Shown here: positions 7,357-20,454 of the stretch, in pieces
How positions within the stretch are numbered: position 1 is the first letter of the stretch
Layout of the letters: each line of letters starts with the position of its first letter
Source of the DNA: a virus
DNA length: 24,706 nt
Direction: 5' to 3' (one strand)
IMG/VR virus record: IMGVR_UViG_3300025543_000201
Location: 1 to 24,706 of that record
Made by a program: the position numbers and the translations under genes
The notes under the pieces: model-generated
What the model saw: the letters and a program-made list of their open reading frames with translations, nothing else
Told to the model about the DNA's origin: nothing
Databases searched by the model: none

Positions 7357-7384
7357 GGCCCCCACTTCGGTGGGGGCCTTTTTT
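7357..7384 (+). terminator. Intrinsic terminator of the left (+) operon
   Basis: GGCCCCCAC (7357-7365), UUCG tetraloop closed by C-G, GTGGGGGCC (7370-7378), then six T (7379-7384). A 9-bp GC-rich stem with a UUCG cap and T run is a textbook rho-independent terminator for + strand transcripts. The T run overlaps the stop codon of the converging - strand giant gene. Read from the - strand there is no T run after the stem, so it is predicted to act mainly on the + strand. Confidence 0.93.
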
Positions 7385-10300
7385 ATTCCCAGATGGTTGC
7401 TGGTCCGTATTGGCTCGCAAGCTCCATGGTGCGACGGATGTTCTGGTCGCTGAGGTTGACGCCGTGGTGCATACGATCCGTTGTCTTCATGTTGGCTGTT
7501 AGCGACGCTTCTTTGGTCTTGGGAGTGATCTCCGCATCGCCGGGGTGACGCCGGTTAAACTCTGCGATCTCCTGCTCGACCTCGCGGAACGTGGTCCTGT
7601 CCCCCGAACTGAACGCCTGATACCGCATGGACAGCAACTTTGAGCGCTCTTGGCGGATCGCGTTGTCGATGCGTGACAGGGCAGCGTTCTGGTCCAGCTG
7701 ACGGGCGTATGCTGCAGGCATAAAACCAACGGCCTGAGCGAGGACACTTGCAGGACTTATGTCGTCAATGATGAGGTCGCCGCGCCGGGTGCGGATACCC
7801 TCTTGGCTGTACCGTGCTGCACGGAACAAGTTGGCGACCGCCGACGGCATGAGCGCCTCAGTGCCGCGCTGGATGTCACCTGCGGCAAACAGCTCTGGGA
7901 CGCGCGTCATGTACTTGTTGGTCAGGCCAACAACGGGGCCACCTACACCCTCGATCAAGCGCCATAGCGGTGGTTGGCCTTCCGAGTTCAAACCTGCACG
8001 GTAGAACGGCGCACCGAGGCCGATCCGTTCAGACACACGCACGCCCGAGAGGTAATCAAGCAGGCCATAGGCGCCGTATTCGCCGATGGCGGTCCGCGTC
8101 ATTGTCTTGAAGTCTTCTTCATCGTCGTCTGCGAACGCGTCATAGATCCAGCCCAGCTGCTGCACGAGGGGTAGACCGAGAGCACCCGACAACGTAGCAA
8201 GCACACCCATCATGCCACCTAGCTGCAGGCGCGCGATACGGACGTCCTCGCGGGCTGCGGCGCGCTCCGACTCTGGCATGGCTGCAATCTGCGCTTTGGT
8301 TGGCAAGGAGCGCGTCATCGTCTGATACAGCAGGTTGTACATGGACAGGGAGTGGCGCTTATAGAGCATCAAGATATTACCGAGGTCCGACTGGGCCGCT
8401 TGGGTCGACGCGGCTGCATACATTGGGCCGTTTGTCTTCTCTGCCACGTTCATGGCTTCCTTGGCAGCCTCTTGGTACTGGGCGTCTGTGAACCGCAGTG
8501 AACCGTCTTCGAGTTTCTTGGCGACCTGCTTGAGAGAGAAGTCCCCCATATTGTTGTCTTTTGCGAGTTTCTGCAGTGCCAGATGGTACTTCGCAATACC
8601 TGTGACCTCGCGTGTTCCCCGCTCCAACGTGCTCTGCATAACGCCGGACGCTGCGATCACTTTCTTGGCAGTCGCGAAGCGGCCGGTCACGTTCTCACCG
8701 GCGGTGAGGTCTTGAAGGAGGGACCGACCAAACAAGCCGTTTATGCGGCCTGCGTCTTGGAACGCCTTCATATATCCGAACTTGCTGTTGGGGTCGCTCG
8801 TGTCGAGGTTGTCCACGCTTATATCGAAGAAGAAGCCCTTCTTCTGAAAGCCCTCTGTTTGCCCTTCGGACGTGATACGTTCTGCGCTCAGCATGGTGCC
8901 GGAACCCATGAGCATACGGCCCGCATGACCAAGCGCCTGCATGGTAGACTTCACGCCGTGGATGGGCGCCATGTTGGTGAACGCATAGATCGGCAGCGAC
9001 GTCAACACGAGGAGCGCTGACGACACGTTTGCGGCAAGAGTCATGGCCCACGCACCTGTGGTTAGCGTCTGCGCAAGCTCGCCTTGCCTACGGAACGCCG
9101 ATGACGCGTAGCTCGTGAGCGCATCATAGTAGACCCGCGCCTCTTCCACGTCCTGACCGCGTTTTATCGGGTCGGTCCATGCGGCCCCAGCGAAGTCCTG
9201 ATACTCTTTTGTCAGCTCTTGCTTGGCCTTGGCGAATTTAGCGCCATATTCGATGTCCACGATATTGCCTGCGAGGCGCAGGGTGTTGTCACGGATGTTT
9301 GCGAGTGTGTCGCCGGGAGTGAGCTCCTGCTCCAACGGCGTGATGTCCCCGACGAAACCTCGAGTACCCTTCCGTGCGCGGAACATCTGCATGAACGACG
9401 ACTCAGGTGCGGTGTCGAGAACCATCTCGATGATGGAGTCGCGAACGGAGCTGTCCAACCCTGCAGCATCAATAGAAGAGAGGAGGCGACCCACCATCTG
9501 ATCCGACATCTTCTCACGCTTGCGGGCATCTGCCTGCTGGTAGGGCGTGATGGTTTTCAGGTCGATCTGAAACGCGGGAGGCTGGCTCTGCAGGAGGCGG
9601 ATGGCGATGTCTCGTTGGCGAGACGTCTGGAAGGAGTGTGTGAAATACTGCACGTCAGGTTTCGGCCCGATCAGATCCCCATCCTCGTCGAGTTGGACCT
9701 TCTTGGGGTCCGCACCGTAATAAGACAGCGCATAGTCACCGGTCCGGCTCAGGGTCTGGTATGGCGTGACACCTGTGCCGTTGAACACCTTGTCGTAGAT
9801 CTTGCCATAGATACGTTCTTGGAGTGCGCGGTCCTGCGGTAGCAACGCTTCGAGGCGCGACTTCAGGGCCACCGCAAGGTTCTTTGTCAACGCCTCGGGA
9901 ATCGCGAATAGCGTGTCCATGGCCTTGCGCCCTGCGGGACCGAGGCTGTTATACCCGCGCATGACTTCATCGAATGCGTTGAGCTGGTCCGGGTCTTGGG
10001 CAAAGTCTACGGATGCTTCGGAGTGGCCGGGGATGCCTGCACGATCATGCTGCCGCATAGCGGCGTTTAACTCGTCGCGGGTCTTGTATCGAGACGATAC
10101 TTCTGTGACCACCTCGCCCGATGCAGGGTCGATGCGGTCGTACTTGTACGAAAAACCTTCGTAGTCGGAGCGCTTCTTGCGCGGGTCCGCACCGAAACGT
10201 GTCGCCGTAAAGCGCACATCGTTGAAGGTGTCAATCTTCTCGAGATTTGTCTTGATCCACTCGTTCACAGGCGCAAGGGAGTCCACCACTTTGTCGAGGA

Positions 10301-13300
10301 TGTTGCGCTTGGCCGTTTTGTGCTCATTGACAAGTTCCGGTATGGTGCGTGCAGTGTCTGGGAAGTACCGCTTTGCCGCATCGCCGATATAATCGAGCGG
10401 CATGGAGAGCCAGATCATGTTCTCTTTGAACTTGGAGTTTACGCGGCGGTCACGGAGGACGTTGCGCACCTCCTGCATGTCTGCAGGTGTGGCTTCCTTC
10501 ACGCGGTCCTTGAACTCGTTCAATATCTTGCGTGCGCCCAGAGGGCGGAATGAAGACCCCATAATGTCGCCCGCGCCACGATCGGCGGGGTTCGCTGCGA
10601 TGACGGTGTCCAGCGCACGGTCGATAACGTCGGTGGCCGAACCGAGCGGTTTGGAGTCCATGCCGAGAAGACGACGTAAGAAGTTTTTGATGCGGTTTGT
10701 GAACATCTCCCATGCGGAGAACTTGGCGCCGTCGGGGTTGAGGCGGGACATCTCGCGACGGAACTCGGGGTTGGTAAGCCCCTCGGCGATGAACTCCTGC
10801 AGGTTCTCGGCACCGTTGAAGCCCGGCGGGGTGTGCGGCACGATCTTTGACATCAACGTCATGAGCTGACGCGTCAGCGGGTGGGACGGGTTGCGTGTAA
10901 CGCGATCAAGAACTGCGTGGGAAGCCTCATGCAGCAGGGTCGTCGCGTCGAGCCCAGAGGTCTCGTTGAGGAGGACCGAGCCGCCGTATTGCTGCGCTAT
11001 ATCTATGGCCTCGTCGCGGCCTTGGCGACGCGCATCGGCGATAGCTTCTGGCGTCATCGTCGGGATGTAGACGCCCATCGCGGCACCGCGTGGGTCTGGC
11101 GTGCGGCCCGGTCGCATAGCTGCTTCGATCCGTGCCATCGTGGCTTCTGGTACGAGCTGAACTTCTGTATCGCCCAGCATACTACGCATCTTGTCCGCGA
11201 GGCGACCCGCGTACTTGTCCGATGCGGTGATCCGCAGGTTGCGCAGTGCACCCATCAGGTTGCCTTCGCGCAGGTACTGTACGACGCGAGGGTGCAGGGG
11301 TGGGCCATTCTCGGCGCGTGCGCGAAAATCGCCCATGCTGTCGTCGATATAGCTGAGGTCTTCCTGCGCTAAGCCGAAATCTGCCGCAAAGTCGTCGTCA
11401 TAGATAGACTCACCCGGGTCGGTGATTGACTCGCGGTACGCGCGCTCGGCTTCTCGTTGTGCCTTGCGTTTCTTTTCCTTCTCGTCGGCCTTAGCAAGGG
11501 CGGCGGCGTAGTCCCGTGGGCGGTGCAGCTTTGTTGCGTCGTTCATGGCCACAATGGTCTCTGGGCTCAGGTTTCTCCCTGCCCATGCGGCAGCTCGCTT
11601 CGCTGGCTCTGTACCAGTGTCGGTGTAGACCTCGAGGTCTACCTTTAACTGCTTACTCATGAGTTCGCCGCCGAGGATGGATTCGGCGCTTCTGAATTTG
11701 GGTACCGAGCTCTCGCCGAGTGCTGCCAGATCGCTCGCGATCGCATGCAGGGCTGTGCCAACGTCAGGGTAATTCTTGAAGTAGGCGTAGGCGTAGTATT
11801 GGTTGGACACCTTACCTTTTGTTTTCTTCGGGGGGTTCTCGAGCAGCTTTAGGACGGCGGTCTTATCTTTGGCCGTCGTCGGCATGGTCTCGGCAGTGTC
11901 CGTCAGCGACTGCGTTTGTGCACGCAGCTCGGGCGAAGCGGTAGCCGTGAACCGCTCAGCAATGCGGTTTTCCAGCGCGCGGTTTACTGCGGGGTCTTCG
12001 GGTACACGTGCGACTGCTCGCCGAGTGGGTTGTGGTGTTGGGCGCACAGCGGGCGCAACCGGTGCAGGGATGGTCTGCCCTGCAGTTCCGAGTTCTGCGC
12101 CGGGGGTTGCGCCCGCCATCTGCGGCGTCGGTGCAGTAGGAGGAGTTGCCGTAGTGTCCCGTAGTGTCTCGCGGCGCTGAGCGATTTCAGCGTCTTCGAC
12201 GAGCACCGAGGCAGGGGTGGAGATGCCCCGTTCGTACGCATTGCGCACTGTGGCGGCATAATCCTGATCGCTTGTCGGTGGTTTGGGCGCCGCCTCTGAC
12301 GCTGCCTCAAACTCAAATTCTGGTTGAGTCGGAGACGCTGCAGTCGCCTCCGACTCCACTGTCGCGGCGGGAGGGGAGGGCTCCTTTGGCGACGGTGTTG
12401 GTTGTGTGGCAGGCTCTGCGGGCTGCTGACCAACCCAAGGACCGTTTTCTTCGGGCTGTACATCTACAACTGTTACTGACCCATCGGGATTGTCAACGAC
12501 GAGTTGGCGCGAGTCAGCTTTTGCTGCGTCGATAGCTTCCTTACGAGTGTATGTAGGGGGTTTCCCTTGCCTCAAGAGGTCGGCAACACGTTGGAGTGAG
12601 GCCTCCCGTACACCACTGCCCAAAAGGCTAAAGGCACTTTCTACATCTCGAGCTGACCTCGATGATATACTCTCAGGTGCGGGCTCCGCTACCGCATCTT
12701 CTTCAACTACTGCATCTGGGTCGGCGACGGGGCCAAGGTCAATCTCACCCTGTGCCGCGCCTTTGGCTGCGTCGGCTTTGGCCGCGGGAGTGGCTCCGGC
12801 GCGTTCTGCTGCTTCCGCTGCACGCGCCGCATCAGCCTCAGCAGCAGCAAGTTCAAATGCGTCGGCCTCAGATAGCGTCGGTTCTTGTGCCGGTATGGGT
12901 GCAGGTTGCGACTCAGCCTTCCGCAGTTCCCCAATAAACTGTCGCGTACGTTGCGACGCAGCCCGAAGGTCAGGGCGACCGTCAAAGTCTGCGGCATCGA
13001 CAAATGACTGCAGTTGCTTGATTGCGTCAGCACGTGAAAGAGCCCCCTCCGCAAACCGCCGGTACGTACGTGCGGCTTCGGGGATACCGAGAGCCTTTAG
13101 CGTTTCCGTGGTAATCGGCTGCGCAGGGTCAGGTAGTGGACCAAGGTCTACGGGGTCGGCGACAACCTCCGCATCTTCTACGCTGTCAGGGTCAAACGGC
13201 GGTTTTGGTGCCGGCGGTGGAGGTGTGCGCCCCTGTGCCGACGCTCGGTATGCATTTACGGCCGCGTCGATTTCTGCCTGCGTGGCGTCGCCGGGCAAGA

Positions 13301-14366
13301 TTATCTTTTTCCCGTCGCTGAGGCTAACCTGCGTTTCGTTTAGGCCGCGGCTGGTGATCCGCGTGGTGCCGACTATTGTGGCATTGCCTGCGTCTGGGCC
13401 GGGTCGCTGCCCCACAGGATCATCGTCAAACTGACCGCTTTCGGCTTCGGATGGCGGGGGGAGCTGCAGCTGCTCGTCTTCTTCTGCCGTACGGCGTCGG
13501 CTTCCAAGTGCGCCGACCCCACCAAATACGCCACCCAATGTACCGCCGGCAACGCCAGCGTCGAGGTATTCGCGATAGGCATCTTCGGAGTCGAGGTCGA
13601 GCCCTGCCTGCCTGCGTTCGAGCACCTGCTGCCCCACCTCAGTGGCGGCTTCCGCAGGGATGTTCGTGAGCAGCGCACGGCCAAGACCTTTACCCGCCTG
13701 CCCCACAAGCAACACGTTGGACGCGGCTTCAAGTGCGGTTTGACCGATCGCAGTGAGTGCGGCCTCTGGGACGTCCACAGCGGCGAGATTGCCGGCAGCG
13801 ACTTCACCTTCTTGTCGCTGGATGTTGGAACCAAACAACTGCGGGTAGGAAACTAATATCGTACCGAGACCTGCGGCCACGGGGGCAGACGCCCCAGCCA
13901 ACATACCTGCGCCGGTCGCGGCAACGGTGCCGCTAATCAGCGGCAGTTGCTCACCGATCAGCTCGCCGACATAGGTCAGACCGGAAGATAGTCCGCGCAC
14001 GTCGCGGAAGTCTGAGGACTCCATAACACTTGGGTTAGTGGCGAGAGTGGCTCGTTGGCGGTCGCGGGCGGCATCTTTTAGGTAGTCGCTGACACCCTCA
14101 AGCCCGGCAGCGCCGGCAGCGCTCCCTAATGCAGACTGAAACTGTGGGATGCCGCGCTCGAGACCGCGACCAATAGCGGTGCCGGCCTCCGGGTCATAGG
14201 GGATTTGCATCCCTGTTGTACCCTCAAACTCCTGCTTGTACGCCATCTCGTCGCGCTGCAGAATACCCTGCATACGCTGCATCTCTGTGGGCGACGGCTG
14301 GTCCCCAGCGATCGTGAAGCGGTAATTCTTACCGCTGAGAAATCCGGGGATCGTATATTCGCCCAT
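7383..14366 (-). CDS. Giant polyvalent internal virion/ejection protein with zincin motif (PLxRFG/LPD38-like)
   Basis: 2327 aa. Residues 128-290 are Gly/Ala-rich and hydrophobic (for example LISGTVAATGAGMLAGASAP). Residues about 290-830 are a Pro/Ala/Glu-rich, low-complexity stretch. A zinc-metallopeptidase-like segment follows: GLDATTLLHEASHAVLDRV, with H1146, E1147 and H1150 as HExxH, and ENLQEFIAE (E1191, E1195) supplying a likely third ligand. Around 1530-1545, TPYQTLSRTGDYAL resembles the PLxRFG motif of phage polyvalent proteins. Hydrophobic helices at 1772-1802 and 2049-2078 (LGGMMGVLATLSGALGLPLV) fit the LPD38-type C-terminal region. Such proteins are packaged in the capsid and thought to be ejected with the DNA, forming or crossing the envelope channel, as T7 gp16 does. 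The start ATG 14366 has GAGG upstream (complement of 14372-14375), 15 nt after the previous stop. It is the last gene of the virion block. The family call comes from memory of motifs; protease activity is unproven. Confidence 0.82.
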   Translation of the reverse strand: MGEYTIPGFLSGKNYRFTIAGDQPSPTEMQRMQGILQRDEMAYKQEFEGTTGMQIPYDPEAGTAIGRGLERGIPQFQSALGSAAGAAGLEGVSDYLKDAARDRQRATLATNPSVMESSDFRDVRGLSSGLTYVGELIGEQLPLISGTVAATGAGMLAGASAPVAAGLGTILVSYPQLFGSNIQRQEGEVAAGNLAAVDVPEAALTAIGQTALEAASNVLLVGQAGKGLGRALLTNIPAEAATEVGQQVLERRQAGLDLDSEDAYREYLDAGVAGGTLGGVFGGVGALGSRRRTAEEDEQLQLPPPSEAESGQFDDDPVGQRPGPDAGNATIVGTTRITSRGLNETQVSLSDGKKIILPGDATQAEIDAAVNAYRASAQGRTPPPPAPKPPFDPDSVEDAEVVADPVDLGPLPDPAQPITTETLKALGIPEAARTYRRFAEGALSRADAIKQLQSFVDAADFDGRPDLRAASQRTRQFIGELRKAESQPAPIPAQEPTLSEADAFELAAAEADAARAAEAAERAGATPAAKADAAKGAAQGEIDLGPVADPDAVVEEDAVAEPAPESISSRSARDVESAFSLLGSGVREASLQRVADLLRQGKPPTYTRKEAIDAAKADSRQLVVDNPDGSVTVVDVQPEENGPWVGQQPAEPATQPTPSPKEPSPPAATVESEATAASPTQPEFEFEAASEAAPKPPTSDQDYAATVRNAYERGISTPASVLVEDAEIAQRRETLRDTTATPPTAPTPQMAGATPGAELGTAGQTIPAPVAPAVRPTPQPTRRAVARVPEDPAVNRALENRIAERFTATASPELRAQTQSLTDTAETMPTTAKDKTAVLKLLENPPKKTKGKVSNQYYAYAYFKNYPDVGTALHAIASDLAALGESSVPKFRSAESILGGELMSKQLKVDLEVYTDTGTEPAKRAAAWAGRNLSPETIVAMNDATKLHRPRDYAAALAKADEKEKKRKAQREAERAYRESITDPGESIYDDDFAADFGLAQEDLSYIDDSMGDFRARAENGPPLHPRVVQYLREGNLMGALRNLRITASDKYAGRLADKMRSMLGDTEVQLVPEATMARIEAAMRPGRTPDPRGAAMGVYIPTMTPEAIADARRQGRDEAIDIAQQYGGSVLLNETSGLDATTLLHEASHAVLDRVTRNPSHPLTRQLMTLMSKIVPHTPPGFNGAENLQEFIAEGLTNPEFRREMSRLNPDGAKFSAWEMFTNRIKNFLRRLLGMDSKPLGSATDVIDRALDTVIAANPADRGAGDIMGSSFRPLGARKILNEFKDRVKEATPADMQEVRNVLRDRRVNSKFKENMIWLSMPLDYIGDAAKRYFPDTARTIPELVNEHKTAKRNILDKVVDSLAPVNEWIKTNLEKIDTFNDVRFTATRFGADPRKKRSDYEGFSYKYDRIDPASGEVVTEVSSRYKTRDELNAAMRQHDRAGIPGHSEASVDFAQDPDQLNAFDEVMRGYNSLGPAGRKAMDTLFAIPEALTKNLAVALKSRLEALLPQDRALQERIYGKIYDKVFNGTGVTPYQTLSRTGDYALSYYGADPKKVQLDEDGDLIGPKPDVQYFTHSFQTSRQRDIAIRLLQSQPPAFQIDLKTITPYQQADARKREKMSDQMVGRLLSSIDAAGLDSSVRDSIIEMVLDTAPESSFMQMFRARKGTRGFVGDITPLEQELTPGDTLANIRDNTLRLAGNIVDIEYGAKFAKAKQELTKEYQDFAGAAWTDPIKRGQDVEEARVYYDALTSYASSAFRRQGELAQTLTTGAWAMTLAANVSSALLVLTSLPIYAFTNMAPIHGVKSTMQALGHAGRMLMGSGTMLSAERITSEGQTEGFQKKGFFFDISVDNLDTSDPNSKFGYMKAFQDAGRINGLFGRSLLQDLTAGENVTGRFATAKKVIAASGVMQSTLERGTREVTGIAKYHLALQKLAKDNNMGDFSLKQVAKKLEDGSLRFTDAQYQEAAKEAMNVAEKTNGPMYAAASTQAAQSDLGNILMLYKRHSLSMYNLLYQTMTRSLPTKAQIAAMPESERAAAREDVRIARLQLGGMMGVLATLSGALGLPLVQQLGWIYDAFADDDEEDFKTMTRTAIGEYGAYGLLDYLSGVRVSERIGLGAPFYRAGLNSEGQPPLWRLIEGVGGPVVGLTNKYMTRVPELFAAGDIQRGTEALMPSAVANLFRAARYSQEGIRTRRGDLIIDDISPASVLAQAVGFMPAAYARQLDQNAALSRIDNAIRQERSKLLSMRYQAFSSGDRTTFREVEQEIAEFNRRHPGDAEITPKTKEASLTANMKTTDRMHHGVNLSDQNIRRTMELASQYGPATIWE

Positions 14367-14381
14367 GGTGGCCTCTATATG

Positions 14382-16562
14382 TTAGTCGCTGACATCATAC
14401 CCGACGTTGCCACCACCCGCAACAACTCCGCCCGTGGCCGGTAAGCCCGCCCCGAAGCGCACGATGTTGTCGCGCTGCAGCTTTAGTGTCGCGAGTTTGT
14501 CGCGGATTGTGTTTGCTGCCCCGACTAAGTTCTCGTCAGGGGAACCGAACCACGGCTCAGAGGCCGCGGCGTCATCCTCGGCGTTCAGCAGCGCCTGCTC
14601 GAGCCGCGAAATGTCGTCGTTCAGTGGGTCCAGAGCACGCGCCTGCGCGGCAGACAGGCCAAACCTCGGAGCAGCTTCTGCGGCTGCGCCACCACGTCCA
14701 GCAGTTCGTGCGGCCAGCGTGGCGCGGGCCAAGGCCATCTTGTCAGCGGCTTCCTTTCGACCGAGGAAATCTTGGCGTGCTTGACTTAGCGCGTCGAGGC
14801 CGACCTGCCCAGCTTCACCGACTGCTTGCCCAAATGTAGGGGCCCGCGATGATGCCAAGGCCGCACCGAAGCGCGCCAGTGCAAGCCACTTATCCTGCTG
14901 CAGCATGCGATCTTCGTTTGTCTGCGGTGGAGGTACAGGCATTCCGCCAACTGTCGCGCCGCTTGTGGTACTGCCCGCAGGGCCTGTTGGTGCCTGCGGT
15001 GTGAGAACTTCTGGGGCGGGCGGTGCAGGTAGCAGCTCTTCGGGTGTCATGGTACCGAGGTCTTCAGCAGGTACGAGTGTAGCCATTTCTGGCGGTTCGG
15101 CCGTGCCGTAGTTCTCCGGATACTCATATCCCGCTATAGTCGGAGGGCCCGAAGTTAAAGCCTCTATGGCTCGATCTATAAACGCCGGACGGGGCCCTTG
15201 ATATCCCACCCTCGGGTCGATGTACCCGTAGTTCGGGTCAGCGGGGGGTACTTGCGGTTGGTCTCCACCCATACGGCGGTCCATGGCCATATCTGCAACA
15301 CGTTCGGTGCGCGGGCGAAGCCCTTCGGTAAGGTCCCCCATCGGCAGGGAGCTGAGGAATTGATCTAGGGGTGCCGCAGACATACCATCGCTGACGTCGA
15401 TAACATCGCCCCGTTCCGGGGCTGCTTGCTCTGGTGGTCCGCGACGCGCTCCGATCTCGGCAGCGCGCTCCGCTGCCCGGACCCGCGCGGCCGCATCTGC
15501 GATGCCTGTAATCCCCGCAGGTGTTTCTGGGCGCGGCGTAAAGTCAGATGCGCCGGCACCACGCTGCCCCTGCAAAAGTCGGTCAGGGACGTTAAACTCT
15601 ACGGGACCAACACCGAGGGCACGTCCGGCCATCGGGCCTTCGATCATCTGGTCCATCGTCTGTGGACCAAGCTCAGGCGGGGCCTCGGGGTCTCCATTCA
15701 AGATCGCTTGAATAAACGCGTCCGTCTCCATGCCGGCACTTCGCGCTTGGCGGTCCAGCAGAGTGAGGTCTTCTGGCGTGGCACGCCCCTCGATAGCTTT
15801 TGCAGCGTAAAATTCAGTAAGGTCGCGCTCTGGGGGCGTATACTGCGCATCAGAGCCCATCCGGCGGTCCATAGCCATATCGCGAGCGGCGCCACTATAG
15901 TAATCGCTCACATTCCGACTGATACCTGCTAGGCCGCCGTTTCTAAAGTTAATTAGCCCTTTTGAGCGGTCTCTCGCATAAGTTTCTGCGTCCTCTACGG
16001 TGTCAAACAACGGGAAGGTTTCACCTGTGATTGGATCAACAGGGCCATTCTTTTGCACGTAATCAAAGACCTCATCTTCAGAAAGGACGTTACCGGATTC
16101 ATCCACAGATGGGAAAGTGAGCCACTTACCGTCGAACGGAAATGTGACGGTTTTCTCAGAATAATACGAGCCGTCTGGATTCGCATAGAGCGGGCGTCCT
16201 ACCCGTGAAGTGAGGCCGCCCTCCTGCATGGTCTGCACGGGTGCAGCACCTTGCGTGGCGACGCCCGCTTGTGGTGTCATCATGCCGGTGTTCTGTGTCA
16301 TATCTGTCTGCGGCGCCAAGCTGCGAGCCATATCGGCGATGCCGCCTTGGGGCACACCTGCAGCATTAACTGTGTCTTGGGCAACAGTGCTTGTGGGCGG
16401 ACCTTTGTCGAGCGCAGCCGCATTCTCCATACGCGTACGTCGCTGCAGCTCGGTCATCACCAGAAATGGCGGCGCACTGCCCGACGGAGATTGCATCTCG
16501 CTAAGCAGTTGATCCTTGGAGAAGTCCTTGAGCTGCTCCTGCAGCTGAAATAAGTTCATCAT
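14382..16562 (-). CDS. Putative internal virion (ejection) protein, 726 aa
   Basis: Begins MMNLFQLQEQLKDFSKDQLL, then EMQSPSGSAPPFLVMTELQR, an opening I associate with internal core proteins of aquatic podophages. Residues about 130-205 (SYYSEKTVTFPFDGKWLTFP ... FDTVEDAETYARDRSKG) form a small domain related in pattern to the phage YRSEYS...IPTLVP...HARxRI module. The rest is Pro/Gly/Ala-rich. The nonapeptide DMAMDRRMG occurs twice (228-236 and 424-432), suggesting a repeated unit or a processing/assembly signal. The C-terminal part (about 560-680) is Ala-rich helix (WLALARFGAALASSRAPTFG). The first ATG (16560-16562) overlaps the preceding gene's stop as ATGA; a second ATG follows at once. 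AAGGA lies directly upstream, so M2 could also be used. Its place between two other likely ejection proteins supports a T7 gp14/15/16-like core role. Function is inferred. Confidence 0.72.
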   Translation of the reverse strand: MMNLFQLQEQLKDFSKDQLLSEMQSPSGSAPPFLVMTELQRRTRMENAAALDKGPPTSTVAQDTVNAAGVPQGGIADMARSLAPQTDMTQNTGMMTPQAGVATQGAAPVQTMQEGGLTSRVGRPLYANPDGSYYSEKTVTFPFDGKWLTFPSVDESGNVLSEDEVFDYVQKNGPVDPITGETFPLFDTVEDAETYARDRSKGLINFRNGGLAGISRNVSDYYSGAARDMAMDRRMGSDAQYTPPERDLTEFYAAKAIEGRATPEDLTLLDRQARSAGMETDAFIQAILNGDPEAPPELGPQTMDQMIEGPMAGRALGVGPVEFNVPDRLLQGQRGAGASDFTPRPETPAGITGIADAAARVRAAERAAEIGARRGPPEQAAPERGDVIDVSDGMSAAPLDQFLSSLPMGDLTEGLRPRTERVADMAMDRRMGGDQPQVPPADPNYGYIDPRVGYQGPRPAFIDRAIEALTSGPPTIAGYEYPENYGTAEPPEMATLVPAEDLGTMTPEELLPAPPAPEVLTPQAPTGPAGSTTSGATVGGMPVPPPQTNEDRMLQQDKWLALARFGAALASSRAPTFGQAVGEAGQVGLDALSQARQDFLGRKEAADKMALARATLAARTAGRGGAAAEAAPRFGLSAAQARALDPLNDDISRLEQALLNAEDDAAASEPWFGSPDENLVGAANTIRDKLATLKLQRDNIVRFGAGLPATGGVVAGGGNVGYDVSD

Positions 16563-17653
16563 CCTTGCAACCCCTTATACGCGCCGATTGCCTGTAGGCC
16601 CGTCCCGAGAATTTCACGTCCGGTATTTGCCGGAGCGTATGTGGTCTGTGTCTGCGAAGTTTCGATCGGCACACCCTGTAGGATAGAAGACATGCCCTGT
16701 AGCTGCTGCATCGGGAACGCCTGCTGCCGCAAAAAGTCTTGATACCCGATATCGAGCCCCGCCTGCCTGCGCGCTTCGTCGGTCTGGCCGAGAGCTTCTA
16801 GCATCTGCGCACCCTGAATATCGGCGCCACGTGCGGCCTCCCCGAGCCCCACCATCTGCATGGCTTGGTCGCTACTGAACCCAAGGGCTGCCAGCCGATC
16901 CTGCATAGCGCGTGCGTCTTCGGCTGCTTGCGCACCCTGCACTCGCCCTGCTTCGGAAGCGCCAAGTTCTTGGGCCCGGGCCCGCTCTGCAAGCTGTGCT
17001 TCTTCGCGCCCCATCTGCGCGGCGCGGTCTGCACCAAACATAGACTGGGCATCAGTATAAGCACTCTGCATGCCGCCGGCGTAGGTGTCACCCATTTGGC
17101 GCTGCAGCGCTTCTTCGGCCATGGCCTGTTCTACGCCTGACCGTGATCCGCCGAACGCCCCAGCTTGGACTGCCTGCGTATCTCTTGCACCTTGTCCGAT
17201 GTCGAACTGACGTCGCTGTTCGGCCATCTGCCGACTCAGCACGTTCTGGATATAGGGAGACATATATTGTTGTGCCGCTTGCGGTGTAAACATCTGCGCG
17301 TCGCTCAACTGACCGCCGCTCGTATCCACTCCGGAGAACTGATATGGTTGCTGCTCTGCGGCCACCTGCTGCCCTGCAGCGATGTTACCCCTCGACACAT
17401 CCATAGCTTCGCCGAGTCCGGCAATGCCAGATCCGGCTATACCGCGCGCCATGTCGGCAGATCGCAATTGATCCGCACCGGCTTCAGCGATTCGCTGCCC
17501 GCCGTAACCCTCATACGCGGCCATCGGGTTATAGATAGCCTCGGCATCTTTCAGGAGTCGACCGTAGTATGGTTTTGACTGCCCTGTAATGCGTGTGCTT
17601 GTGACTGTTTGGTCTACCGGTTCGGTAGGTGCACTGCTTCCGCCGCCCATCAT
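16559..17653 (-). CDS. Putative internal virion/DNA-transfer protein, 364 aa
   Basis: A 364-aa Ala/Gln/Gly-rich protein. Its most recognisable part, about residues 125-200, reads YMSPYIQNVLSRQMAEQRRQ, then AVQAGAFGGSRSGVEQAMAE and MGDTYAGGMQSAYTDAQSMF. This pattern (YMSPY.Q.V...GAFGGSR...) recurs in phage proteins annotated as DNA-transfer or internal virion proteins. The central region is long amphipathic helix without cysteines; the ends are Gly/Ser/Thr-rich. The start ATG 17651-17653 overlaps the upstream stop by 4 nt, with GGAG 8 nt before it; a second ATG follows at 17648-17650. The protein probably forms part of the internal core or the ejected channel with the 726-aa and 2327-aa products. 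It is not certain whether it corresponds to T7 gp14 or gp15. Confidence 0.72.
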   Translation of the reverse strand: MMGGGSSAPTEPVDQTVTSTRITGQSKPYYGRLLKDAEAIYNPMAAYEGYGGQRIAEAGADQLRSADMARGIAGSGIAGLGEAMDVSRGNIAAGQQVAAEQQPYQFSGVDTSGGQLSDAQMFTPQAAQQYMSPYIQNVLSRQMAEQRRQFDIGQGARDTQAVQAGAFGGSRSGVEQAMAEEALQRQMGDTYAGGMQSAYTDAQSMFGADRAAQMGREEAQLAERARAQELGASEAGRVQGAQAAEDARAMQDRLAALGFSSDQAMQMVGLGEAARGADIQGAQMLEALGQTDEARRQAGLDIGYQDFLRQQAFPMQQLQGMSSILQGVPIETSQTQTTYAPANTGREILGTGLQAIGAYKGLQG

Positions 17654-18120
17654 AGCGTGGACTCCCTATATTCATCCAAGGATTCGTGCAGGAAGAACTC
17701 TCGCACCGCCAAGCTGACCGACCGCATATAATCCCGCCCGCGCACCAACTGAATGGAGTGTAGCAGAATTTCGAGCGTGAGGTCTCGCAGTACGTAGGCC
17801 CGACTTACCTGAGTATCGGTACCTTTTTCTAGTTGGTTTGCATCCAACCACGCATTTATAGCAACTGACATGATTGGCACAAGCTCGCTCTTGAACCGCG
17901 CGAAAAACGGGTTTACGTGCATGTCTATCAGTAATTTGTACATCATACCGACGATCCACTCGTCAGAGATGGGTTTGTCTTTGTCGATCAGATCGTCAAA
18001 AAACTCGCTCGCCTCGCCGATCATCTGTACATACTGCACAGCATAAGCATCGCCGAGCCACGCCATTAACTGCGCGTCCCGAGCCTGACGCCATGGTTGG
18101 CTGTCGAACGCATGCGTCAT
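17650..18120 (-). CDS. Conserved-type structural-block protein, 156 aa (unknown role)
   Basis: A 156-aa mostly helical, acidic protein beginning MTHAFDSQPWRQARDAQLMA. A central segment, ASEFFDDLIDKDKPISDEWI, is followed by KLLIDMHVNPFFARFKSELV and IMSVAINAWLDANQLEKG. The NPFF...L.P...AI..W..A pattern is familiar from small proteins in the same cassette as LPD38-type giant proteins, but I know no assigned function. No signal peptide or membrane segment is visible. Both ends overlap neighbours by 4 nt (ATGA at 18117-18120 and at 17650-17653), so it is translationally coupled into the ejection-protein cassette. It could be a minor virion protein, scaffold or chaperone for its neighbours. Confidence 0.65.
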   Translation of the reverse strand: MTHAFDSQPWRQARDAQLMAWLGDAYAVQYVQMIGEASEFFDDLIDKDKPISDEWIVGMMYKLLIDMHVNPFFARFKSELVPIMSVAINAWLDANQLEKGTDTQVSRAYVLRDLTLEILLHSIQLVRGRDYMRSVSLAVREFFLHESLDEYRESTL

Positions 18121-19289
18121 GCTGGCACCATTCCGCCCGCTGCAACTGCGGCAGGCTGCTCTGTTTTACCGGTACGTGCCTCACGGACACGACCCATCAT
18201 ACGGTCAAGTTCTGCAGCGCCAGCGTCAGTCGAGCCGTTGCCGAGCCCACTTACGACATCTGCAGGGATGACAAACTCCCCATCACTGAGAAGAACGTCT
18301 GAGCTGCCGTCGTCCATGCGAGCCGGGATCATGTCTGACATACCGTCGCCGGGGCCGCGTACTGGACCTTCGCCGCCTTGAGGCGCGCGACCTGACTGCA
18401 CATCATCAACTAGCTTGCGGAGTGCTTCTTCACCGTAGGCCTGCACGAATGCTGCAAGGATCGGAGCCGCTTGTTCTTCTGGAATCTTACCCTGCACGGC
18501 TGCGATTGTACCTTCGACGATCGCTTTCTCGTTCATTGGTGGGGCTGCCTGTGGCGCGGATGCAGCGGCAATATCCGCCAGACCGCCACCTTGCATGGCT
18601 ATTGGGGCTTGCCCTGTCGGTGTAAATGACACCATGCCGCCGTTGGCCATCTTAGCGGGGCCAAAATACTGGAACTCGGCGTCGTATCCCGGACGATATC
18701 CCTCTGGGGGCGTGTATCGCTCACGCTGCATAGGGGCAGATCTCGGGATGTATTCGTCTTCTTCTTCCGCAGCGAAGGGTATTCTAGGTTGGCTTGCGGC
18801 TGCACCATACGCGGCCCCCATACCGGCACCTGATAGGGCGCCTTTGTTGAGTCCTGCGCGAATCATTTCGCTAATGGGTACACCTGTTGGCGCAGTGCCC
18901 ACAGACCCCATCCCGCTCGGGATGTTTTGGAGCATGCCGGATATTCCACCTGCAGCTGGAGTAGCGGCCGCTGCCCCGGGCAGCATCTGAGCGCCGGTCA
19001 TGCCTGCTAGAGGGTTCGCACCCGCAGCGGTTGTCATACCTGTGGCCGAAGCGCCACCTTGACCTAACAGACCCTGCGCGGCTTCCCCGCCACCGAGAAA
19101 CTTACCGGCGAGCCCGCCAGTAATCCCGGATAGAACACCTGCCTTGAGGCCCTTTTCGAGGTCTCCTGTCTGGATAGCAGTGCCGATACCTGAACCGAGC
19201 GCACCTGCAATGAGGGGGCTCATACCGCCGAGGATACCTGCACCGGCAGCTCCAGATCCAAGAAGGCTGAGAATGATGGGTAATACCAT
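18117..19289 (-). CDS. Putative virion protein with N-terminal hydrophobic region and GPG...SDGEFVIPADVV domain
   Basis: 390 aa from the preferred start. Residues 1-66 are strongly hydrophobic and Gly-rich (MVLPIILSLLGSGAAGAGIL ...), suggesting membrane interaction after ejection. The middle is Ala/Gly/Pro-rich with one acidic patch (EEEDEY). The C-terminal segment, about 308-375, carries GPGDGMSDMIPARMDDGSSD and VLLSDGEFVIPADVVSGLGN, a module widely repeated in phage structural proteins near tail and internal virion genes. A longer in-frame start at 19406 would run into the fibre gene. ATG 19287-19289 has AAAGGA 7 nt upstream and a promoter before it, so it is chosen. The stop overlaps the next gene's ATG by 4 nt. 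Likely an internal virion or tail-associated protein; exact role unknown. Confidence 0.72.
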   Translation of the reverse strand: MVLPIILSLLGSGAAGAGILGGMSPLIAGALGSGIGTAIQTGDLEKGLKAGVLSGITGGLAGKFLGGGEAAQGLLGQGGASATGMTTAAGANPLAGMTGAQMLPGAAAATPAAGGISGMLQNIPSGMGSVGTAPTGVPISEMIRAGLNKGALSGAGMGAAYGAAASQPRIPFAAEEEDEYIPRSAPMQRERYTPPEGYRPGYDAEFQYFGPAKMANGGMVSFTPTGQAPIAMQGGGLADIAAASAPQAAPPMNEKAIVEGTIAAVQGKIPEEQAAPILAAFVQAYGEEALRKLVDDVQSGRAPQGGEGPVRGPGDGMSDMIPARMDDGSSDVLLSDGEFVIPADVVSGLGNGSTDAGAAELDRMMGRVREARTGKTEQPAAVAAGGMVPA

Positions 19290-19296
19290 GGCGATT

Positions 19297-19302
19297 TCCT
19301 TT
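19297..19302 (-). promoter_or_regulatory. Ribosome-binding site fixing the 390-aa virion gene start
   Basis: AAAGGA on the - strand (complement of 19297-19302) is 7 nt before ATG 19287-19289 and downstream of the promoter at 19317-19345. It excludes the longer in-frame start at 19406. Confidence 0.6.
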
Positions 19303-19316
19303 GTCGTGTTCCGCGG

Positions 19317-19345
19317 ATTATAGCACGGGTATGTTGCGTTGTAAC
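19317..19345 (-). promoter_or_regulatory. Sigma-70-like promoter for the ejection-protein cassette
   Basis: On the - strand, TATAAT (complement of 19317-19322) is a perfect -10 box. GTTACA (complement of 19340-19345) lies 17 nt upstream and matches 4 of 6 bases of the -35 consensus. The site fills the 64-nt gap between the C1q-like fibre gene and the 390-aa virion gene, the only sizeable gap seen in the right block. Transcription would start near 19310, about 20 nt before the start codon. It would drive the five downstream genes separately from the tail genes. Confidence 0.6.
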
Positions 19346-19353
19346 CCCGTAGG

Positions 19354-20454
19354 TTAAAGTTGGATTTGCGCCACTGATAGCAGCACCGCTGGCACGTCTG
19401 GGGCAAAAGCCAGTCCGGTTGTAGCTGTGAGGTTCACCGCGGTGTCAGTAGCGGCCCATTTGAGTTCGAAGTAGTCTCCCGCCAAAAGAGGCAAGAGGTA
19501 GGTTGCGGACAGGTTTCGCTGGTCGCCGTTTGCTTTTATGGTATAAACCCGTGTCGTATTCGTTACGTCTGTGCCGTTCTTGGATATCCAAAAGTACAGC
19601 GTTTTTGCCGACGCGCTAGACGACGTGAACTGCACCGACATATCTATTTGGTAGAAGCCTGCCTGCGTTACGCTAATCCGCGATGTCGGCGTGCCGATCG
19701 AGATACCGTTTGCCAAGAGTGTGCCTTGCAGTGTGATTGGTGTTGCCGTGTTTGCAGTGGCCAAAGTCTGGCTCGTCGTGGAGTCGAACGCGCCGTAGTC
19801 CAACCCGATAGGGATTGTTGGGCGTACCATGATTTCGCCTTCGGTAGCGTCCACCACGAGAACTGCAGCGACGACGATGACAGCCTGCGGAGCAGTCGGG
19901 CGTACTTTGGTAAATGCACCTGCGGTGCTGGGCGATGCGTAGATGATGTCCCCTGCGAGCCATGTCTCTCCGACGTCGGTCCCTGTCGTGTCGATATTTC
20001 GCACCTTGCCGTATATTGTGACTGGACCGGTGGCGCCATCGACCATCTCGAATGTCGTAACCCCAACGAAGTAAACCTCGAGCACGGAGCCGTCTGCGAT
20101 GTACGGCGAAACCGTAATCTCGCCATTGACGCCGGCAAAGCCGACGACCGTGCCGTTCGGGATTGTGGACCCAGTGTCGTTCGTAACCCGCATGAAGGTT
20201 TCGAATCCAATCTGCTGTGTGACGCCGTTGAGATGCGTGAGGTCGATCGTGTCTTCGGCGCTGTTGTATGACAGCTGTCCTGTGTCGACGTTGTTGGCAC
20301 TCGTGGTGAGCGTCAGAGACGTAGCCCTTTCGGGGCCCGGCACGCGAGACTGCTGCGCAAATAGCGAGAACGCCCGCGTCACTTCGGCGAGATACTGCTG
20401 CGAGTATTGCCCCGGCGGCGTTGGAAAGTACGGGATGTTGAGGTTCTGTGCCAT
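19354..20454 (-). CDS. Tail fibre/spike-like protein with C1q-like C-terminal domain
   Basis: 366 aa. The N-terminus, IPYFPTPPGQYSQQYLAEVT then RAFSLFAQQSRVPGP (7-41), resembles the short helical anchor of phage fibres in aquatic podophages. Residues about 60-215 form beta-rich repeats of Val/Thr strands (LSYNSAEDTIDLTHLNGVTQ, GTVVGFAGVNGEITV, GDIIYASPSTAGAF, IMVRPTIPIGLDYG). Residues about 221-366 (ISVTQAGFYQIDMSVQF, TLYFWISKNG, LLPLLAGDYFELKWA) follow the strand order of a C1q/TNF-like jelly roll, a common trimeric receptor-binding fold. A strong GGAGGT Shine-Dalgarno sequence sits 5 nt before ATG 20454, inside the end of the upstream gene; the gap is 3 nt. It is probably a trimeric appendage on the tail or head. 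The C1q assignment is by pattern only. Confidence 0.72.
   Translation of the reverse strand: MAQNLNIPYFPTPPGQYSQQYLAEVTRAFSLFAQQSRVPGPERATSLTLTTSANNVDTGQLSYNSAEDTIDLTHLNGVTQQIGFETFMRVTNDTGSTIPNGTVVGFAGVNGEITVSPYIADGSVLEVYFVGVTTFEMVDGATGPVTIYGKVRNIDTTGTDVGETWLAGDIIYASPSTAGAFTKVRPTAPQAVIVVAAVLVVDATEGEIMVRPTIPIGLDYGAFDSTTSQTLATANTATPITLQGTLLANGISIGTPTSRISVTQAGFYQIDMSVQFTSSSASAKTLYFWISKNGTDVTNTTRVYTIKANGDQRNLSATYLLPLLAGDYFELKWAATDTAVNLTATTGLAFAPDVPAVLLSVAQIQL

Follow-up and report, generated by a model that had tools for sequence, protein, structure and literature searches.

Zincin metallopeptidase domains in polyvalent phage proteins, including the virion RNA polymerase (vRNAP) of N4, were described in 2017 by Iyer et al. 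(PMC5512222), with a three-strand core and an HExxH helix followed by a helix that carries a glutamate. Three options have been published for these domains, namely self-processing before packaging, processing after entry and attack on host proteins (PMC5512222). The N4 vRNAP is packaged unprocessed (PMC5512222), and preparations of the purified protein were full length and showed no degradation (PMC12633501). In phage PhiM1, ejection protein gp48 is present as one 1263-aa chain in the virion structure; its residues 268–528 were described as an endolysin/exotransglycosidase-like domain for which peptidoglycan digestion was proposed, with no mention of a protease, and a lysozyme-like domain was placed in the other ejection protein of this phage (PMC11440229).

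The window analyzed here is the whole of a 24,706-base IMG/VR virus record. Its giant open reading frame, for a polyvalent/ejection-type protein, lies on the minus strand (14366..7383), starts with ATG and encodes 2327 aa; the plus strand across 7383–14366 has stops throughout. Residues 1144–1156, LLHEASHAVLDRV, hold H1146, E1147 and H1150 of an HExxH motif (HEASH, residues 1146–1150; 10917..10931, minus strand). Further on, ENLQEFIAE (residues 1187–1195) contains two candidates for a distal glutamate, E1191, which is 41 residues past H1150, and E1195 (E1191-F-I-A-E1195, 10782..10796, minus strand). In 20,000 composition-preserving shuffles of the giant protein, the chance expectation for HExxH was 0.009 per protein, and none of the shuffles had HExxH followed by N..EF[IVLM] 30–90 residues on.

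Close relatives of the giant protein among viral contigs were few (L001, 94% identity; L002, 89%; L003, 98% over residues 1–558). The zincin domain is under strong purifying selection, with identities of 100% to L001 and 94% to L002 and a dN/dS of 0.06 against L002. Comparison of the domain with phages by tblastn gave only matches with E of 0.02–1, which became convincing only after alignment and profile searches. Six phage proteins, each representing one group of tblastn matches, were inspected; all were giant, 1421–3545 aa, and stood in virion or virion-like settings; they include N4-type vRNAPs, Cellulophaga phi14:2 g065 and proteins of a Limnohabitans T7-like phage, a Rhizobium phage and a Vibrio phage. 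The phi14:2 protein, annotated from virion MS/MS, carries the same domain, and the Limnohabitans giant occupies the internal-virion-protein position. The aligned distant domains were 19–27% identical to that of the window, and only seven of their columns were invariant, among them those of H1146, E1147, H1150, E1191 and F1192. E1191 was invariant in all seven compared lineages, and E1195 was kept only within the close family.

Because this seven-domain alignment was too diverged for a collection search, DNA patterns were used instead. Many of the 54 rows of the resulting alignment were found with a pattern that contains HExxH, so that its ligands were preselected (HExxH in 54/54). For this reason, conservation was assessed in a separate set of 80 viral loci chosen by the C-terminal half alone (alignment of residues 1455–2320), 66 of which had an ORF extending far enough to judge. 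The zincin was found in the same place in 65 of the 66, and HExxH, located 250–330 residues ahead of the aligned C-terminal block, was intact in 65/65. The E1191 column held Glu in 64 and Asp in one, and the E1195 column held Glu in 65/65, at a median pairwise identity of the domain of about 40%. The sole exception, L222, has a different HExxH. Distances between zincin domains correlated with those between C-terminal blocks (Mantel r 0.74; 0/999 permutations as high), indicating that the zincin was inherited together with the block in this group. The zincin is thus a fixed component of a phage protein with an LPD39 and PLxRFG C-terminal half. A plasmid search for the protein gave no match, and a search of a bacterial genome collection gave, among the matches listed, one contig with the C-terminal block (L240 1524-3641, an 8.9-kb Verrucomicrobiales MAG contig that is probably viral).

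This conservation is far stronger evidence for a zincin than the HExxH motif alone. The original prediction had reported a zinc-protease motif with a complete ligand set of two histidines and a distal glutamate in the 2327-aa protein; the motif is real by the minus-strand ORF, the shuffle test and its conservation, and the ligand set is strictly conserved, with the His and Glu residues kept in close and distant homologues alike. In zincins, the glutamate of HExxH activates water and does not bind zinc. E1147 varies no more than the zinc ligands do, and this argues for catalysis and not mere metal binding. The same observation bears on a reading in which the zincin fold would serve packing or folding and catalysis would be of secondary importance or lacking. 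The N4 region that contains the zincin is needed for encapsidation (PMC5512222), in line with such a role. However, the catalytic Glu and the ligands do not vary even though identity elsewhere in the domain falls to about 40%, and there would be little reason for a fold with a structural role alone to retain a general base; we therefore consider a structural or encapsidation module improbable.

The AlphaFold2 model of residues 1023–1289, built with 54 alignment rows, had a pLDDT of 88.2 and a pTM of 0.81. Its predicted elements run in the order strand, helix, strand, two helices, strand, HExxH helix, helix and Glu helix, which fits the zincin core described for polyvalent proteins (PMC5512222). 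H1146, E1147 and H1150 lie on model helix 1141–1156 and E1191 lies on helix 1189–1198, where it would serve as the third zinc ligand. A Foldseek search of this model against the PDB returned nothing at E < 0.001; near the top were PPEP-3 and anthrax lethal factor (M34-type zincins), at non-significant values (E 0.5–1.5, probability 0.14–0.57). Against predicted viral structures, the best matches had E of 2e-10 to 8e-4, with names including large polyvalent protein, virion RNA polymerase and internal protein D. The structure prediction that had been suggested as a check thus gave the zincin order of elements in a confident model, and the accompanying fold search of the PDB gave no significant match.

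No Pfam model was meaningful for the zincin or for any part of the window protein, and the window's zincin clade is reported by no Pfam-A model. The 54-row profile matched solved ejection proteins: 9sfn_G, 'Internal virion protein', at E 5.1e-22; PhiM1 gp48 (8vb2) at E 2.4e-16; and 23sg gp10 at E 8e-13. Its best match outside phages was lethal factor, an M34-type zincin (E 2.5e-5). A smaller profile matched the N4 vRNAP at E 8e-6 to 6e-5. From conservation in relatives, the AlphaFold model and the profile matches taken together, residues ~1066–1245 (10632..11171, minus strand) are almost certainly a zincin metallopeptidase domain with HExxH and a distal Glu on a following helix. An accidental HExxH in a helical stretch with no relation to zincins, for which only the shortness of the motif speaks, was rejected: the unbiased conservation test refutes it, the model, the profile matches, the viral Foldseek matches and the shuffles speak against it, and its probability is close to nil.

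A zincin in an ejected giant protein is of a kind known since 2017, and the window protein adds a member. With the polyvalent metallopeptidases (MPTases) of Iyer et al. (PMC5512222) it shares the HExxH and Glu helices, the three-strand core, a place within a giant chain for which delivery alongside the DNA is predicted, and neighboring LPD domains. Unlike those polyvalent proteins, it has no vRNAP, methylase-helicase, ArdC or other recognized enzyme; the zincin is its only recognized enzymatic domain. The C1 domain of N4-type vRNAPs (Schitoviridae; PDB 11gp, 9pnr and others) is likewise a homologous zincin in an ejected giant (profile E ~5e-5), and the profile matched the vRNAPs of Klebsiella P184 and Presley at E 3e-20 and 2.5e-24, respectively. 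Unlike the N4 vRNAP, the window protein lacks an RNA polymerase domain: no RNA polymerase match was found in it outside the zincin region, and its C-terminal half had no vRNAP match.

PhiM1 gp48, a tetrameric ejection protein (PDB 8vb2), and 9sfn_G carry the same zincin as the window, in chains of 1263 and 1337 aa; the window's LPD39-PLxRFG half differs in having no PDB match. In 8vb2 chain A, residues 379–536 matched the zincin profile at E 2.4e-16 and contain HEAAH and EFI, which suggests that the 'endolysin-like' domain of gp48 belongs to the same zincin family as the window's domain. No earlier statement of a zincin reading for this gp48 domain was found in the open-access literature. The label given by the PhiM1 authors, together with their proposal of peptidoglycan digestion (PMC11440229), is also what would support a role in envelope opening, in which the zincin hydrolyzes peptidoglycan cross-links or an envelope protein for the conduit, replacing the transglycosylase of T7 gp16. 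Against this, the other ejection protein of PhiM1 already has a lysozyme-like domain, a transglycosylase is also present in some of the giants, and what the profile matches is the M34-type zincins and not any known family of peptidoglycan endopeptidases; envelope opening is therefore very improbable.

The genes around the giant ORF were examined for its setting. Upstream on the minus strand are genes including a 619-aa phrog_3287 virion protein, a 364-aa protein of a 'DNA ejection protein' family (16559..17653; phrog_4287, E 3.1e-9) and a 726-aa neighbor in the same operon (14382..16562), followed by the giant, which is the largest and last gene of this ejection-protein operon (364 aa - 726 aa - 2327 aa). 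A Gly-rich, hydrophobic 429-aa ORF (18117..19406, minus strand; 390 aa from an inner ATG) is ejection-protein-like by appearance and has a short match to a DSL-LC04 virion-operon protein. Plus-strand genes for a nuclease-like ORF, an SNF2 helicase and a primase-helicase converge on the giant. The gene order recurs in three diverged viral contigs of about 60 kb (L171, L191 and L194; 59–66 kb), as an ejection protein or equivalent, a 626–735-aa protein syntenic with the 726-aa neighbor, the giant, a convergent 938–956-aa primase, and proteins of ~300, ~130–150 and 511 aa; the syntenic genes of L191 and L194 match phrog_4287 too. In L191, the gene syntenic with the 726-aa neighbor (746-2785) matched 'endolysin' family phrog_26675 over residues 177–296 (E 2.4e-15), and the window's own 726-aa protein was below threshold for this family. 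Based on gene context and homology, the giant is very probably a virion/ejection protein, as originally proposed; the operon, the synteny, a phrog_6958 match and the homology to solved ejection proteins all support this.

A Gly/Ala-rich hydrophobic region at residues 58–308 (13443..14195, minus strand), kept in L119, has its hydropathy peak at residues 154–172, and residues 58–229 match the virion structural protein family phrog_6958 (E 3.4e-5); by composition and hydropathy it is a possible membrane-active part. Residues 309–1000 (11367..13442, minus strand) form a low-complexity, fast-evolving linker or variable region, Ala/Pro-rich and with no Pfam domain, in which identity drops: against L001, it was 75% in residues 815–1022 versus 100% in the zincin. 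The hydrophobic, low-complexity N-terminal part of the earlier description is thus real and Ala/Pro-rich. A protein of L003 (10001-12379) was 98% identical to window residues 1–719 over the first 558 and then 52% over 656–719, a break inside the linker that looks recombination-like. Almost no cargo enzymes were found in the N-terminal regions of relatives, with one FtsK-gamma in 39.

On the C-terminal side, residues ~1306–1460 (9987..10451, minus strand) correspond to LPD39, judged from where it lies in relative L194. LPD39 (PF18858), a domain regarded as 'potentially enzymatic' (PMC5512222), was matched by 44 of the 46 members of the C-terminal alignment, with the window's own sequence below threshold. 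Residues 1966–2309 (7440..8471, minus strand) form a PLxRFG or 'tail-700' domain, the DarB-type C-terminus (NCBIfam NF032893, E 1.3e-65; phrog_10089, E 1.3e-32). Hydrophobic stretches lie ahead of this domain (1775–1802) and inside it (2047–2068). The PLxRFG assignment of the original prediction therefore holds, but its LPD38 label was rejected, since LPD38 was not matched by the window even at a cutoff of E 10, nor by the 46 rows at E 0.001, and 44 of the 46 C-terminal halves match LPD39. The metallopeptidase is thus embedded with LPD-type domains, PLxRFG in the window and LPD39 in 44/46 members of the C-terminal alignment. A model of residues 1246–2327 (pLDDT 80, pTM 0.76) had no PDB match at E < 0.001, leaving similarity to T7 gp16 in this half unsupported; a T7-type transglycosylase identity for the giant was rejected.

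To see what precedes this C-terminal block elsewhere, nine cultured phages with the same block were surveyed for HExxH or HExxxH shortly upstream of it. A motif was present within about 270 residues in 8 of the 9; Atu_ph08 had neither HExxH nor HExxxH in this slot. In RHph_TM3_14A the slot holds the window's zincin clade. In Parlo, POI1126, Skulduggery and ZX1 it holds a different zincin clade, with HE(A/L)FH and EE(L/F)xAYAxE, that is related to the window's at the profile level (hhalign 81%), and in Rollin, Pavtok and Vibrio douglas it holds divergent motifs, recognized as motif matches alone. The DarB-type PLxRFG giants (Pseudomonas Rollin, Klebsiella ZX1, Serratia Parlo and others) thus share the C-terminal block and, in most, HExxH or HExxxH at the same slot, but differ from the window in holding another zincin clade or a divergent motif there. 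By these comparisons, the position before the LPD39-PLxRFG block appears usually to be a metallopeptidase place that different clades fill. What is new here is that the zincin keeps one fixed slot even where another zincin clade replaces it. Serratia phage Parlo (L245 2023-13317) has two zincin-type domains of different clades in one chain, at residues 1065–1323 and around 2557, and the former is of the window's clade and lies outside the slot. In Pseudomonas phage Rollin (OR577172.1; L239 53-6607), the 2184-aa giant with an LPD39/PLxRFG-type C-terminal block and HEMGH in the slot is annotated as oligopeptide ABC transporter OppA.

A slot fixed at the junction of a variable N-terminal part and a constant C-terminal part favors processing in or near the chain. 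In the mechanism that we propose, the giant would be a protein of the head that leaves it together with the DNA, as the gp16-like member of the ejection set, and the zincin would then refold in the host envelope or cytoplasm and cut a protein there. The likeliest substrate would be that very chain after ejection, or else other copies of it and neighboring proteins, with a cut at the junction of the membrane- or cargo-bearing N-terminal part and the LPD39-PLxRFG part, so that cargo would be separated from its anchor once delivery is complete. An in-chain processing step after ejection is our leading guess, held tentatively; for the explanation as a whole, we estimate a probability of roughly 45%. 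No cleavage site was identified, which counts against the in-chain step, and packing against LPD39 is another possible reason for the fixed slot. The intact N4 and PhiM1 chains make constitutive self-cleavage unlikely in those relatives. All three functions suggested originally, on the envelope, on host defense proteins or on the chain itself, are hypothetical, and the last two correspond to options already published (PMC5512222).

These intact chains also bear on two other uses of a protease. They argue for a non-self target, as would be expected of an injected effector that cuts one or more host proteins (e.g., a defense, transcription or envelope factor) right after entry. An effector role is a published option for polyvalent zincins (PMC5512222), and the closest profile match outside phages is an M34-type zincin, from a family of secreted proteases whose substrates are other proteins. 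However, the slot beside the LPD39-PLxRFG block is identical across very different giants; a free effector could sit anywhere and would need no fixed slot, which counts for an in-chain role, and we regard the effector as possible but rather unlikely. The other use is maturation during assembly, in which the giant or its partners would be cut in the procapsid before packaging is complete; in P1, cleavage of DdrB, likewise a protein with a polyvalent zincin, precedes packaging (PMC5512222). Since the vRNAP of N4 enters the particle uncut and that of PhiM1, the ejection protein gp48, is a single chain there, the probability of a maturation protease is low.

It is conceivable, although we would sooner doubt it than assume it, that a single zincin family belongs to the regular working equipment of DNA ejection in N4-like phages, PhiM1-type podoviruses, crAss-like phi14:2 and uncultured phages of about 60 kb, acting as a proteolytic switch after ejection and not as accidental cargo. 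If so, the 'endolysin-like' domain of the PhiM1 ejectosome would be a metalloprotease. One strictly conserved predicted protease ties together solved ejection-protein structures, the N4 vRNAP and many uncultured phages. What ejected phage proteases do has been asked since the 2017 proposal, and could be tested by mutating just one catalytic residue in a relative that can be grown.

Rhizobium phage RHph_TM3_14A is such a cultured phage with a comparable protein. Its 2307-aa protein (L007 5770-12693) has the same zincin (E 1.8e-32), the same C-terminal block (E 8e-62) and a similar length to that of the window, but differs in an inorganic pyrophosphatase domain (InPase, PF18823; E 2e-48) immediately before the zincin. 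The phage also has a homologue of the window's primase-helicase (L007 14842-17925; E 2e-48), which is annotated 'putative integrase protein'.
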